Source: Leptolyngbya sp. Heron Island J (GTDB lineage Bacteria > Cyanobacteriota > Cyanobacteriia > Phormidesmidales > Phormidesmidaceae). Taken from it: a stretch of 64,000 nucleotides of DNA. Positions within the stretch are counted from its first letter, which is position 1, and every line of letters begins with the position of its first letter. Positions 53,834 through 57,737 of the stretch are shown here, in pieces. The notes under the pieces are model-generated. The model was given only the letters and a program-made list of their open reading frames with translations, searched no databases and had not been told where the DNA came from. Location: assembly GCF_000482245.1 (NCBI RefSeq), contig NZ_AWNH01000071.1, positions 62,001 through 126,000 on the forward strand. The letters run 5' to 3'. The translations under genes and the position numbers were made by a program.

Positions 53834-53845
53834 ATCATTAATGTG

Positions 53846-54673
53846 TTATGGCATCAACGATGGGGGTAAGTGAGTTTTCTCACCTACTTGGTATCCTTGC
53901 TGCTTGATGAGACGTTCAAGGTTACGCACGCGCTTTTGCGATGGTGGGTGGGTGGCTAGAATGGCTAGTCCAGGGCGTTCTTCCTGACTCAGTCGATCAA
54001 AAAAGTCAGTGGCCCCGGCAGCATGGCCATAGGTCTGGTTAAGCAGGGTGAGGCCGATTCGATCGGCCTGTTGTTCTTGCTGTTGGGAAAACTGAGCGTT
54101 GGCCAGGGCAGAAATGCTGGTGGTTGCGATCGCTCCGATGGAACCAAAGTCACCTACAATCCCTGAGAGGGAGAGTTGTAATAAGACCTGTCGGCTAAGA
54201 GCCCGTAAGTGATCCCGATTGGCAAAGTGGCCGAGTTCATGGCCCAGGACCATCATTAACTCGTTTTCGGATACAACCTCAGCCAGTAATCCCTGGTGGA
54301 TGATGATGCGATCTCCCGGTATCGCTAACGCATTGACCGTCGCGTCAGGCACATACAGCACCTGATAATCTCGTCCAGTACGCTGCTCAGTAGGTAAGTG
54401 GGCTTCTAATCGATCTAACAGCTGGTTAAGTGTATTCTGTGTGGCCGATGGTTGAGCCTGCGCCTCATAAATGGGAACCATTGCTCTGCCTAGCTGTTGT
54501 TCGACGCTGGTAGGAATAAACCAAACCAAAGCCCCGGCTAACCAAAAGGTAAGTGCGATCGCAATACCGATACCCATAACAAACAGAGCCAACAGCGTCA
54601 GCAACTGACGATTACTCGGCGGCGGTGTGTTTTCGCTATAGGCGGCTGTACCAGGTGGAAGCTCAATGGGCAT
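53846..54673 (-). CDS. M48 family metalloprotease, membrane-anchored
   Basis: A 275-residue zinc protease. A membrane anchor near residues 23-52 (LLTLLALFVMGIGIAIALTF) is followed by a lumenal or periplasmic domain. The zinc motif is LGHELGHFANRDH (His145, Glu146, His149), and the third ligand is likely the Glu in QEQQADRIGL. This resembles HtpX/BepA-type M48 enzymes that handle misfolded envelope proteins. It is the last gene of a leftward group after three AIM24 paralogues, only 16 bases beyond the nearest, so co-transcription is likely. Confidence 0.93.
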   Translation of the reverse strand: MPIELPPGTAAYSENTPPPSNRQLLTLLALFVMGIGIAIALTFWLAGALVWFIPTSVEQQLGRAMVPIYEAQAQPSATQNTLNQLLDRLEAHLPTEQRTGRDYQVLYVPDATVNALAIPGDRIIIHQGLLAEVVSENELMMVLGHELGHFANRDHLRALSRQVLLQLSLSGIVGDFGSIGAIATTSISALANAQFSQQQEQQADRIGLTLLNQTYGHAAGATDFFDRLSQEERPGLAILATHPPSQKRVRNLERLIKQQGYQVGEKTHLPPSLMP

Positions 54674-54689
54674 TTTGCGATTGCTTGCT

Positions 54690-55391
54690 CTAATTGTTGC
54701 TTTTAGTTGGGCGGAAAGGATTTAGAAAGTTAACCAACGAATAGACATTACGGGATTGAACCCACAATCTGCCTGTGCCACTAAAGCGAGCCACCAAGCC
54801 CTCTCCACCAAAAATACCGGTCCTTAAGCCTCTAAACGATAGGCCACTAATCATTTCAATGTTATAGCTGAGAGTATCTTCAAAGGCGACGATATAGCCG
54901 GTATCTACTACATAGTCGCCTTCTACAGGAATCTCTAAAATTGCACCAAACGAACTAAACCAAAAGTCGCCCTGGCCAGTCACCTTTAAAAGAAAAAGTG
55001 ACTCTCCACTAAAAAAGCCTTTAAATCCTTGAAATTTACTATCAATAGCAACCTCTGGTCCAGCGGCGACAAAACCTGATGATTGCACCATCAGGTTTTG
55101 TCTGCCATCCAAAACATAGTGTTGAATATCACCAGGTACACCTGGTGATATGTACAAGTCTCCAGATTGCCCCTGAGCTGTAAACTCGCTGATAAATAGG
55201 GATTCACCGCCCAGCATGCGACCCAGGCCTTTTTTCCATCCGCCTTTAACTTTAGACTTCATCTCAATACAGCTGTCCATCGCTGCCATAGCACCTGCTT
55301 CTGCAGACACTGTTTGGTTAGGTTTTAGACTGAGCTTGAGCGACGCATAAGCTGGGTTATGGTCGATGGTGTATGCAATTTCAGTACTCAT
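54690..55391 (-). CDS. AIM24 family protein (TIGR00266), third of three paralogues
   Basis: A 233-residue beta-rich protein of the AIM24/TIGR00266 family, whose mitochondrial member affects cristae and membrane organisation; bacterial roles are undefined. Typical cues are SAEAGAMAAMDSCIEMKSKV, LGGESLFISEFTAQGQSGD, and YVVDTGYIVAFEDTLSYNIE. GESLF occurs twice, as in the paralogues. The C-terminus ends LVNFLNPFRPTKS. The gene sits 16 bases before the M48 protease gene, suggesting shared function. No signal peptide or membrane segment is seen. Confidence 0.92.
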   Translation of the reverse strand: MSTEIAYTIDHNPAYASLKLSLKPNQTVSAEAGAMAAMDSCIEMKSKVKGGWKKGLGRMLGGESLFISEFTAQGQSGDLYISPGVPGDIQHYVLDGRQNLMVQSSGFVAAGPEVAIDSKFQGFKGFFSGESLFLLKVTGQGDFWFSSFGAILEIPVEGDYVVDTGYIVAFEDTLSYNIEMISGLSFRGLRTGIFGGEGLVARFSGTGRLWVQSRNVYSLVNFLNPFRPTKSNN

Positions 55392-55492
55392 ATAGCTTAG
55401 TTCCTGTTTGCTGGCTGATTTATAGCGGTTGGGTATCGGCTTCGCTCACCCCTCAGTTGTTTTTAACCTTAGCTAGGTGAGCGGAATCGAAC

Positions 55493-56170
55493 CTAACGAG
55501 GGGGAAGCTTACTGCCGACTAAGCGCCCGAATGAGCCAGGATTGTGGGTTTGGCAAAAGACTTTACCGTGGCCTCTAAACTGACAGACAAAACCTTCTCC
55601 ACCAAAAACCGCGCCGAGCCAGCTTTTATTGGCTTTAGCAATGCTGTAGTCGAGGGTACGTTCAAAGGCAACAATATGACCTGTATCTACCACGTAATCT
55701 CCGTCTACCTCCACTTCATAAATGCCTCCAAAAGCACTGAGTAGGACCAAGCCGGAGCCACTGGCTGTAAGCCAAAAAAGAGACTCTCCCGAAAAAAGAC
55801 TTTTGAAACCGGTGAACCCTAAGTCAATATCGACACCTGGGGTACTGGCCATATAGCCTGTGGATTGGACGACGAGTTCTGTTTCGTCGAGGGTATAGGG
55901 GAGAATGTCACCAATGAGTTTGGGGGCCAGGTATAATTCTGCAGAACTATTGCCTGAGCGAAAAACGCTCATGAACAGGGATTCCCCGGCCAACATTCGC
56001 TTTAAACCGCCAAAGACACCGCCACCTTTGCCTTTACGGAGCGTGGTGCTGACGTTGACAAAGCCGCTCATGGCAACCATGGCTCCGGCTTCGACAATCA
56101 GCTCCTCTTGGGGATCCATTAAGATTTTTGCGATCGCGCTATCCGGCTGATGTAAAAGCTCAAGTTTCAT
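55493..56170 (-). CDS. AIM24 family protein (TIGR00266), second of three paralogues
   Basis: A 225-residue paralogue of the neighbouring genes. Shared features are VEAGAMVAMSGFVNVSTTLR, RMLAGESLFMSVFRSGNSSA, the SLFWLTASGSGLVLLSAFGG stretch and DTGHIVAFERTLDYSIAK. The C-terminus is short and ends in a Pro-Pro-Arg. The gene lies 101 bases before the third copy and 45 bases after the first, all in the same direction, so the three are probably one transcript. It is diverged from both neighbours and so is not a recent duplication. Confidence 0.92.
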   Translation of the reverse strand: MKLELLHQPDSAIAKILMDPQEELIVEAGAMVAMSGFVNVSTTLRKGKGGGVFGGLKRMLAGESLFMSVFRSGNSSAELYLAPKLIGDILPYTLDETELVVQSTGYMASTPGVDIDLGFTGFKSLFSGESLFWLTASGSGLVLLSAFGGIYEVEVDGDYVVDTGHIVAFERTLDYSIAKANKSWLGAVFGGEGFVCQFRGHGKVFCQTHNPGSFGRLVGSKLPPR

Positions 56171-56215
56171 ATGCTTGTAGATTTATATAAGTGTTGTTAG
56201 GGCGTCTCAGCTTCT

Positions 56216-56887
56216 CTAACGCAGCTTTGTTCTGAGAAATCGCACCAACCCATCCATACTGCGAGACTGCAGATATATTTTGCCGCGCCCTTGCAGACGA
56301 TTGATAAACCCTTCTCCAGAGGTAACGGAACTCACCATTCCCCCTGAGAGCCCAACATTCATTTTTATACCGGGTTCATAGGCCACCAAATGACCGTTAT
56401 CCACAATGAATTCATCTTTGACATAGACTTCCGAAAGACCGCCATAGGCCCCAAAGAAGACCAAACCTCGTCCGCTCAGCTTGAGCTTAAACAGACCTTC
56501 ACCCGCAAACCAACTAGCAAACCCAGCCCACTGCATACTTACTTTGATGCCAGCACTATGGGCAATATAGGCCCCAGGCTGTAAGCACAGCTCATTGCCA
56601 TTGAGTTCCATTCGGGTGATGTCACCTACCGTAGATTGGGTGAGCACCAACTCTTGAGGACTATCGGTGCGATTGGCAAATTGATTCAAAAACAGAGATT
56701 CGCCACCGAAAAACGACTTGAGCAGCCCTGGAATTAACCCGCCAAAAAAGCCTGTGTTCATGGACAATTGCCCGTCCATGCTAGCCATTGCCCCTGCTTC
56801 TGCAAAAATACGCTCCCCTGGCTGCAGGGTAATGAATAAGGTGGCAAACGCTGGCTTATAGCGAATTTTATACTTCATCGCTAACAC
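56216..56887 (-). CDS. AIM24 family protein (TIGR00266), first of three paralogues
   Basis: A 223-residue AIM24-type protein that opens the tandem group. Family cues are FAEAGAMASMDGQLSMNTGF, LKSFFGGESLFLNQFANRTD and YGGLSEVYVKDEFIVDNGHL, then VAYEPGIKMNVGLSGG. The opening MKYKIRYKPAFATLFITLQP fits the family better than the first possible Met. It has no signal peptide. Whether these proteins form mixed complexes is unknown, but three linked, diverged copies suggest distinct subunits. Confidence 0.92.
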   Translation of the reverse strand: MLAMKYKIRYKPAFATLFITLQPGERIFAEAGAMASMDGQLSMNTGFFGGLIPGLLKSFFGGESLFLNQFANRTDSPQELVLTQSTVGDITRMELNGNELCLQPGAYIAHSAGIKVSMQWAGFASWFAGEGLFKLKLSGRGLVFFGAYGGLSEVYVKDEFIVDNGHLVAYEPGIKMNVGLSGGMVSSVTSGEGFINRLQGRGKIYLQSRSMDGLVRFLRTKLR

Positions 56888-57026
56888 TCCCGTAGATAGG
56901 TCGGATGGGTGTCATCCTTCTCAGACTACCTAGATCGGGCAGGAAAGTAACAGCGGGAGTTGATAAAGCTCAACATAAACATCTGCCTAGATATACAACC
57001 TGGGCTAATGCAAAATTGGATAAAGT

Positions 57027-57692
57027 TTATATGGGCTGAGGGGTTTGGTTATTTCGTTGATCACATTTCATACGTACCCACTGCCGAAAATCAATTTCTG
57101 CGGCTACTTCGTCAAGTAGGGCCGCTTCGAGAAATTGATATAAATCTCTCTTCTCAACGATGGTAAATATTGGTGAACGTTCCTGCTCAATATAGTTGCC
57201 ACTATCGAGACACAAAATCTGCCAGATTTGGCCGTTGAATCGCCAAAACTCGGGTACACCCATGCTGGCATAGAGGGCATTCTTATTAATATCTGTGTGG
57301 GTAATATCAACTTCAACGACCAAGTCCGGTGGCGGGTCAGCGCTCAAATCAATTTCATGATCCGCGACTAAATTGTAGTTCTGAATATAATATCCGTTGT
57401 CCGGTTCTGCACTTTTAAGTAAGTCTTCTCTATCCAGGGTGGTAGATCCCATTGTTTTGATTTTCAGACCCAGCTCTACTACCAAAATGCGTATAAATAG
57501 CTCAATCAGTCGAGCCAGACGCTCATGGCTCTCTAAGGGCATTGTGATTTCAAGAACTCCGGCATCGTAGGTAAACCTAGTGCGAGTACGCTCGGTCAAT
57601 AGCTGCTGAATTTGCTTAAAGCCACCCCAGTCTAAATCGCGAAACGCCATCCGCTTTTCACCAACGGGTTTTGCCGGGGATTTCAAATACAT
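57027..57692 (-). CDS. Uma2 family endonuclease-like protein (DUF820)
   Basis: A 221-residue Uma2 protein. This family, very abundant in cyanobacteria, has a restriction-endonuclease-like fold but few biochemical data. Characteristic stretches are LDWGGFKQIQQLLTERTRTR near the start, YDAGVLEITMPLESHE, SAEPDNGYYIQNYNLV, and DPPPDLVVEVDITHTDINKN, whose VVEVD carries the candidate catalytic acidic residues. The C-terminus has PEFWRFNGQIWQILCL. It stands alone, and mobile gene families of this kind are often strain-specific. Confidence 0.9.
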   Translation of the reverse strand: MYLKSPAKPVGEKRMAFRDLDWGGFKQIQQLLTERTRTRFTYDAGVLEITMPLESHERLARLIELFIRILVVELGLKIKTMGSTTLDREDLLKSAEPDNGYYIQNYNLVADHEIDLSADPPPDLVVEVDITHTDINKNALYASMGVPEFWRFNGQIWQILCLDSGNYIEQERSPIFTIVEKRDLYQFLEAALLDEVAAEIDFRQWVRMKCDQRNNQTPQPI

Positions 57693-57737
57693 AGTAGTGT
57701 GTGCGCCACCTCTCAGGCAGTTCCCCTTGATCGTACC

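Follow-up and report, generated by a model that had tools for sequence, protein, structure and literature searches.

In mitochondria, AIM24 stabilises membrane architecture, and OMA1 is linked to MICOS. Yeast Aim24, as set out in excerpts from PMC3975624, lies on the matrix side, is alkali-resistant without a membrane helix and belongs to a complex of about 400 kDa; its fold is stated, by prediction, to be TRAP-like, and the protein is linked to MICOS. Excerpts from PMC2636767 describe SPFH-NfeD operons, which pair a presumed scaffold of the membrane, frequently present in more than one copy, with a membrane protease, a partner that is sometimes lost. AIM24 genes have also been placed next to TerD (PMC5822837, in an excerpt citing Anantharaman et al. 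2012). A search of the open-licence literature returned no described bacterial function for AIM24; most matches to DUF124 looked unrelated, and two of them concern DUF1240 and DUF1244.

The window, a stretch of 64,000 nucleotides from Leptolyngbya sp. Heron Island J, carries three AIM24/TIGR00266 genes and a gene for a membrane-anchored M48 protease on one strand (Table 1), just as the earlier note had read it, with gaps of 45 bases between A1 and A2, 101 between A2 and A3 and 16 between A3 and M48. The first open reading frame was listed from GTG 56887, but A1 probably starts at ATG 56878, where we placed it because its relatives begin there in the alignment. The 8.06-Mb genome (119 contigs) yielded no further AIM24 gene. 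A promoter and terminator scan was uninformative, with 0 sigma-70-like sites where shuffled sequences averaged 3.8. A Uma2 gene adjoins the unit, and the flanking genes are housekeeping genes. In a genome of the same genus, G632, the TrhO and pterin genes stand 46 bases apart without the block between them.

Table 1. Features of the unit in the window, with the open reading frames as first listed (every one on the minus strand).
Feature	Coordinates	Strand	Listed frame	Basis or remark
A1, AIM24/TIGR00266 type 1, 220 aa, opens the unit	56216..56878	-	56216-56887	PF01987, TIGR00266, start from alignment of relatives, tree clade
A2, AIM24/TIGR00266 type 2, 225 aa	55493..56170	-	55493-56170	PF01987, TIGR00266, tree clade
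A3, AIM24/TIGR00266 type 3, 233 aa	54690..55391	-	54690-55391	PF01987, TIGR00266, tree clade, model
M48 metallopeptidase, 275 aa, single N-terminal membrane helix, closes the unit	53846..54673	-	53846-54673	PF01435, model
Conserved Pro-rich N-terminal tail, M48 residues 13-25; candidate cytoplasmic docking segment	54599..54637	-		alignment pattern
Predicted membrane helix, M48 residues 21-52	54518..54613	-		model helix; hydrophobic in alignment
HELGH zinc-site motif, M48 residues 145-149	54227..54241	-		alignment
Block from TrhO to the pterin gene (unit plus Uma2)	53834..57737			missing whole from same-genus genome G632

All three AIM24 proteins score above the family cut-offs, with 201.7 (A1), 219.4 (A2) and 220.9 (A3) bits for PF01987 (Pfam cut-off 25.7) and 225.4, 194 and 237.4 bits, respectively, for TIGR00266 (cut-off 96.6). 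In the AIM24 tree they fall into three separate clades of 18 rows each, with support values of 100/100 for A1, 98/99 for A2 and 100/99 for A3. A3, modelled as a single chain, has the fold of solved AIM24 proteins (1yox: Z 22.5, rmsd 3.7, 190 aligned; 1pg6: Z 20.9, rmsd 4.8, 204 aligned). Three low-confidence repeat loops in this model raised the idea of membrane-inserting hydrophobic loops, which we dropped, as the hydrophobic fraction of the A1-A3 repeat loops (0.32 to 0.45) is not consistently above that of the whole protein (0.37 to 0.38); the loops are instead glycine-rich (0.16 to 0.33 versus 0.12 to 0.14 overall). A long open frame over AIM24 at another locus, L019, was considered as a possible fusion; AIM24 proved to start independently within that frame and to have no recognisable partner. 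Scanning viral contigs with the type-1 protein of Flammeovirga as the query found no relative.

The earlier note had staked the unit on its neighbourhood being conserved among cyanobacteria, and a gene-neighbour survey upheld this. Among 80 named cyanobacterial loci, 75 keep the order and strand of A1-A2-A3, which argues that the array is not due to chance, and M48 comes next after the triad in 57 of the 76 loci with enough downstream sequence to be counted. The next neighbour family beyond the unit reaches only 9 of the 80, and no recurrent third partner emerged across them; the A1-A2-A3-M48 order is conserved, and the flanks are not. The four gene kinds also lie side by side, with M48 first, on two Bacteroidota plasmids, whose AIM24 genes group in the tree with the same three clades. 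The Bacteroidota M48 could not be taken as a proven orthologue of the cyanobacterial protein, the tree giving no resolution. Because the three clades are common to cyanobacteria and Bacteroidota and are retained jointly, the paralogues are distinct types of old origin that are inherited together; in cyanobacteria they share this inheritance with one M48 orthologue, mostly as an operon-like array.

The M48 orthologue occurs in 23 of 386 genomes, and all 23 carry the canonical triad. Among 388 class genomes, 46 hold both A3 and the M48 orthologue, 3 hold A3 by itself and 1 holds M48 by itself; after correction for kinship on an RpoC1 tree covering 80 genomes, 8.6 pairs spoke for joint change and 0 against it (sign test, p 0.004). 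M48 is also retained with the triad where the two are unlinked, in six genomes of one survey and four of another. G514 and G561 keep all four genes spread over three contigs, while Picosynechococcus sp. PCC 7117 has the triad and M48 at separate places, so that each could be deleted there without disturbing the other. Retention when unlinked, together with the tree-corrected test, led us to reject chance linkage or hitchhiking. Dependence between the parts is unequal. Of the named triad genomes, 19 have no M48 beside the triad, and 13 of these, including three Laspinema isolates, have no orthologue anywhere, which indicates that the triad can do without M48; the orthologue is also missing from the diverged f6 triads and from G326, G415 and G419. 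On our preferred reading, M48 would be an accessory of the triad, and not the other way round.

The M48 protein reaches 95 bits for PF01435 (Pfam cut-off 20.3), and its zinc site is intact at the level of sequence, with H145, E146, H149, E200 and D204 invariant across 17 sequences. Its model matches BepA (6ait: Z 23.3, rmsd 2.2, 200 aligned) and 3c37 (Z 21.6, rmsd 2.7, 204 aligned). The suggested analogy with M48 proteases of envelope quality control has nonetheless proved loose, the protein's scores lying well short of the NCBIfam cut-offs: 74.5 versus 570 bits for BepA, 64.1 versus 365 for LoiP and at most 22.7 versus 275-412 for HtpX. The M48 tree places it in a clade of its own. Positive charge before the membrane helix is higher in 29 cases, lower in 4 and tied in 22 (n=55), a modest positive-inside argument for the predicted topology. 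We propose the Pro-rich tail as a cytoplasmic docking segment. Its strict pattern is present in 56 of 79 sequences; absence from the other 23 counts against such a role, though most of these have a variant.

Our tentative reading, to which we give a little less than even weight, is that the four genes form one functional module, in which a mixed AIM24 oligomer places or gates M48. A1, A2 and A3 would come together as a mixed TRAP-like oligomer at the plasma or thylakoid membrane, on its cytoplasmic face; M48 would be anchored with its N-terminus inside, its Pro-rich tail touching the oligomer and its zinc-protease domain facing the periplasm or lumen. The assembly would then place or gate M48 by membrane state, in the manner of SPFH scaffolds with protease partners, the analogy from which we infer a scaffold role for AIM24; the mixed ring, too, we infer. 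As the predicted topology puts AIM24 and the protease domain on opposite sides of the membrane, contact would be made solely through the tail and helix. Such a layout counts against the module, as do the triad genomes devoid of the M48 orthologue and the lack of tree resolution for the Bacteroidota M48.

A rather unlikely alternative would make M48 a clean-up or maturation protease for a membrane complex of the triad, removing unassembled or damaged parts, with no control exerted by AIM24. That M48 needs the triad more than the triad needs M48, that it has been lost, split or has decayed beside intact triads, and that it has the fold of BepA-type quality-control proteases would all suit this role, but a protease of general clean-up would not have to be restricted to triad genomes, those same genomes hold many other M48 genes, and the conserved tail suggests a specific contact. 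We think it improbable that the unit is a stress cassette with Ter-like logic, its AIM24 proteins binding metal or membrane ligands when the envelope is under stress, with M48 serving as one of several effectors: the reported vicinity of AIM24 genes to TerD (PMC5822837, in excerpt) and the patchy presence of the unit within one genus speak for it, whereas a Pfam scan found no TerD among the eight window proteins between 51962 and 58121, and the lack of a recurrent third partner also counts against it. It is very improbable that A1-A3 act as TRAP-like regulators that bind a ligand or RNA, with M48 merely co-regulated; the fold predicted for yeast Aim24 (PMC3975624, in excerpt) lends itself to this, but there is no sign of a role for RNA, M48 tracks the triad through independent changes, and TRAP is absent among the structure matches listed for the A3 model, an absence that excludes nothing. 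Least likely of all is linkage without joint function, an old block drifting or travelling as a mobile or defence island, which could draw on the patchy presence, the gap in G632, the plasmid location in both Bacteroidota and the Uma2 gene, but is opposed by the housekeeping flanks, by parts that stay together after separation, by the tree-corrected association and by PADLOC, where four window proteins and one Bacteroidota M48 gave no match at E up to 0.01, so that a defence cassette was rejected.

The module of mixed AIM24 oligomer and M48 has a bolder form, which we consider unlikely: a widespread prokaryotic counterpart of the mitochondrial axis of Aim24/MICOS and OMA1, the last of which we presume to be comparable to the unit's M48. 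An obligate heteromeric AIM24 ring of A1, A2 and A3, lying against energy-converting membranes on their cytoplasmic side, would sense lipid or curvature state and gate a transmembrane M48 acting on the opposite side. If true, teamwork between AIM24 and M48 would either predate its use in mitochondria or run parallel to it, and would be common to cyanobacteria and Bacteroidota. As for the earlier suggestion of an undescribed membrane-maintenance system, part of it holds up: the unit is conserved, its parts are gained and lost together, the four gene kinds recur in two Bacteroidota, and no description of an AIM24 triplet with M48 was found in the open-licence literature. Membrane maintenance is a plausible role, drawn wholly from the analogy with yeast Aim24 and the M48 anchor. 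The unit supplies a defined set of AIM24 partners, three types and one protease, in a tractable host group.

Within the AIM24/TIGR00266 family, A1-A3 are full-length members alongside yeast Aim24, PA3696 (1yox) and SpyM3_0169 (1pg6), and the A3 model shares their fold; unlike these, the unit combines three distinct types, inherited together and in a set order, with a protease. Its M48 has the M48 domain, HExxH site and BepA-like fold in common with BepA, LoiP and HtpX, but stands apart by its scores and its clade and, at 275 aa, is without a BepA-like C-terminal part. Ter (TerD) clusters likewise hold an AIM24 gene in a conserved cluster; there, in the excerpt of PMC5822837, a single TIGR00266 gene accompanies ter genes, whereas the unit has three AIM24 types and M48, with no TerD among the window genes scanned. 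Pfam found AIM24 and M48 domains only, and no SPFH or NfeD domain, in the unit's four proteins. SPFH-NfeD and HflKC-FtsH nevertheless follow the same pattern, a presumed scaffold in an operon with a membrane protease, and so resemble the unit in working rather than by homology. If its parts do work together, the unit would be a new scaffold-protease system of bioenergetic membranes.

Three AIM24/TIGR00266 genes (A1, A2 and A3, together the triad) and the gene for a membrane-anchored M48 metallopeptidase (hereafter M48) lie side by side in the window, and the gene coordinates bear out the earlier note's claim that they share one direction with gaps of 45, 101 and 16 bases. No further AIM24 genes were found in the rest of this genome. 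One flank carries a histone-deacetylase-family gene and a rhodanese/UPF0176 gene, which we take to be TrhO. The other carries a Uma2-family gene, then a pterin dehydratase gene and, beyond it, an ORF that is presumably aconitase-like, judged by reading the sequence.

Positions of the four-gene unit, its Uma2-family neighbour and two M48 genes of Bacteroidota plasmids
Feature	Sequence	Coordinates	Strand	Length (aa)	Family or placement
Unit (A1, A2, A3, then M48)	window	56878 down to 53846	minus		
A1	window		minus	220	AIM24/TIGR00266
A2	window		minus	225	AIM24/TIGR00266
A3	window		minus	233	AIM24/TIGR00266
M48 peptidase	window		minus	275	
Uma2-family gene	window	57027-57692			PF05685; next to the unit, on the pterin dehydratase side
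Bacteroidota M48	locus L174	2463-3605			
Bacteroidota M48	locus L175	2475-3593			

The earlier note had also raised the possibility of a conserved four-gene unit, and a gene-neighbour survey in cyanobacteria upheld it. Among the best 80 of 197 named A3 relatives, a set biased to close relatives of A3, A1-A2-A3 stood in this order on one strand at 75 loci, with M48 downstream on the same strand at 57 of the 76 whose downstream sequence reaches 1.2 kb or more; the other four were too short to score. The median gaps were 25, 59 and 47 bases, and the next commonest neighbour family (ORFs of at least 90 aa) occurred at 9 of the 80. What is conserved is the four genes, not the surrounding region. 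Split arrays were seen in Unicellular cyanobacterium SU2 (L102), where an A2 piece lies more than 5 kb from A3-M48, and in Hormoscilla sp. GM7CHS1pb (L117), where 2.4 kb separates two pieces of A2.

A phylum-wide sample of 386 genomes, some of them shared with the named loci, yielded 83 with an AIM24 match, and one stretch was taken from each of 40 of the 82 other than the window's own. Of these stretches, 23 carried a canonical triad, in which a gene's identity to the matching window gene was 58-77% and to either of the others did not exceed 44%; M48 followed A3 in the same direction at 16 of them. Five stretches, from genomes of family f6 (L035, L039, L046, L061 and L062), held a diverged triad in unchanged order (32-45% identity to the window's). 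The remainder comprised one with two such diverged genes (G105), one unrelated pair and ten single genes, and no M48 was seen in the 17 non-canonical stretches.

Across whole genomes, M48 tracked the canonical triad closely. When 17 neighbouring M48 proteins were made into a profile, it scored at least 332 bits in 23 of the 386 genomes, namely the window's and 22 of the 23 with a canonical triad; by this search, G326 has a canonical triad and no M48 orthologue. Two genomes from another class reached 218-219 bits. Their M48s (L180 in G004, L181 in G018) form the nearest group to the unit's M48 clade, and no AIM24 match was found on either stretch. In a class sample of 388 genomes, some shared with the phylum sample, A3 served as the marker of the triad. 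M48 (at least 296 bits) was found in 46 genomes, and A3 (at least 353 bits) in 46 plus three with broken or cut copies (G475, G523, G639). The tally was 46 genomes with both, 3 with A3 only (G415, G419, G639), 1 with M48 only (G645, 73% complete) and 338 with neither. Here the cut M48 beside the triad of G635 was scored as present, G410 and G619 as both though each has only two AIM24 matches, and the incomplete G605 and G649, which show two AIM24 matches but lack a full A3, as neither. Fisher's test gave p = 6e-55, genomes being treated as unrelated, with kinship uncorrected.

Kinship was taken into account on a quick RpoC1 tree of 80 genomes that we chose (39 with both, 4 with the triad only, 37 with neither), on which the triad requires 20 changes and M48 21. 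Well-supported branches gave 10 non-overlapping pairs; in an average of 8.6 of these M48 sided with the triad, and in none against it (sign test, median p 0.004, range 0.004-0.016). This test coded G014 and G133, f6 genomes with diverged triads, as triad-absent; recoded as triad-present, they gave 7.6 with and none against (p 0.008, range 0.008-0.03).

Co-retention of triad and M48 does not require linkage. M48 lies far from the triad in 6 of the 23 genomes that reached 332 bits in the phylum sample (G058, G083, G109, G119, G145, G211). Nineteen named triad genomes have no M48 nearby, and 4 of them carry an intact orthologue elsewhere; one of the 4, Picosynechococcus sp. PCC 7117, is already counted among the six as G058. 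In G514 and G561, A1-A2, A3 and M48 occupy three separate contigs; no contig end in G514 comes closer than about 19 kb to these genes. The same pattern in G608 is apparent only, as that assembly is highly fragmented. Within the window's genus, 3 of 8 class-sample genomes had M48 and A3 and 5 had neither. In G632, one of those five (75% complete), TrhO and the pterin gene converge across a gap of 46 bases; in the window that interval is occupied by the unit and Uma2.

Other results tell against a tight dependence. M48 keeps to the triad more closely than the triad keeps to M48, since triads lacking it exist: no orthologue was found in 13 of the 19 named genomes (highest score 97 bits, or nothing at E 1e-20) or, by profile searches of both samples, in f6 genomes with diverged triads. 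The 13 include three Laspinema isolates and several metagenome assemblies that are possibly incomplete. Two more of the 19 carry damaged copies: M48 is in two pieces over two frames in G394 (L158, L172), and in Trichodesmium MAG_R02 (G397, L159) an M48 remnant interrupted by three stops lies some 240 bases past A3. A3 is likewise broken over several frames in G475 (L197) and G523 (L198). Decay or sequencing error may account for these broken copies of either gene.

Genes of these four kinds also stand together in a second phylum. Searching plasmid records with the A3 protein returned 47, and two of these, from the Bacteroidota Flammeovirga kamogawensis (p1) and Aureibacter tunicatorum (pAT2), match at three places. 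On either plasmid M48 leads and three TIGR00266 genes follow on its strand, with gaps of 2-19 bases, in the order A1, A2, A3 (46-47%, 42-44% and 48% identity, and at most 39% to the two non-matching types). Their M48s, candidate orthologues of the cyanobacterial one, score 114.5 and 128.8 bits against its profile. Both have about 110 extra N-terminal residues preceding the membrane segment, in which no Pfam match was found. In a 77-row AIM24 tree, canonical, f6 (without L062) and Bacteroidota copies are present in each of three 18-row clades (support 100/100, 98/99 and 100/99). Because all three sets share these clades, the triplication is, as judged from the tree, older than their split, whether by descent or block transfer. 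Annotation places no M48 beside the three haloarchaeal plasmid AIM24 genes that were inspected. Stretches from other classes of the cyanobacterial phylum (L183, L184, L185) carry AIM24 genes in tandem pairs that do not resemble the triad types, and M48 gave no match on these stretches.

The A3 model (mean pLDDT 73.9) matched the solved AIM24 structures 1yox (Z 22.5) and 1pg6 (Z 20.9), the next entry scoring 6.3, and the M48 model (pLDDT 81.3) matched BepA (Z 23.3) and 3c37 (Z 21.6), the next scoring 8.3. Zinc-site residues of M48 are invariant in 17 of 17 sequences, and the model has a single long N-terminal helix (residues 21-52). A conserved Pro-rich tail precedes it, in a strict pattern in 56 of 79 sequences (some sharing a genome) and as a variant in most of the other 23, one of which is a fragment without the N-terminus. 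Positive charge was higher before the helix in 29 of 55 measured sequences, lower in 4 and tied in 22; this bias is a modest argument for a predicted topology with the N-terminus inside and the protease domain outside.

That the three AIM24 types have been kept apart over two phyla suggests that they are non-interchangeable subunits of one assembly. We propose that the AIM24 proteins would sit at the membrane, with A1, A2 and A3 in a mixed assembly that would dock on the M48 tail and gate the protease. In the main rival reading, M48 would instead be a clean-up protease for a membrane complex formed by the triad. Both families are already known; no account of an AIM24-M48 module was found in the open-licence literature searched. 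Yeast Aim24 is described as facing the matrix and bound firmly to the membrane although it has no membrane helix; it belongs to a complex of about 400 kDa and is TRAP-like by prediction (PMC3975624). The closest working analogue of the unit is the SPFH scaffold paired with NfeD or FtsH, whose operons are described as conserved, with scaffolds duplicated and partners lost (PMC2636767).
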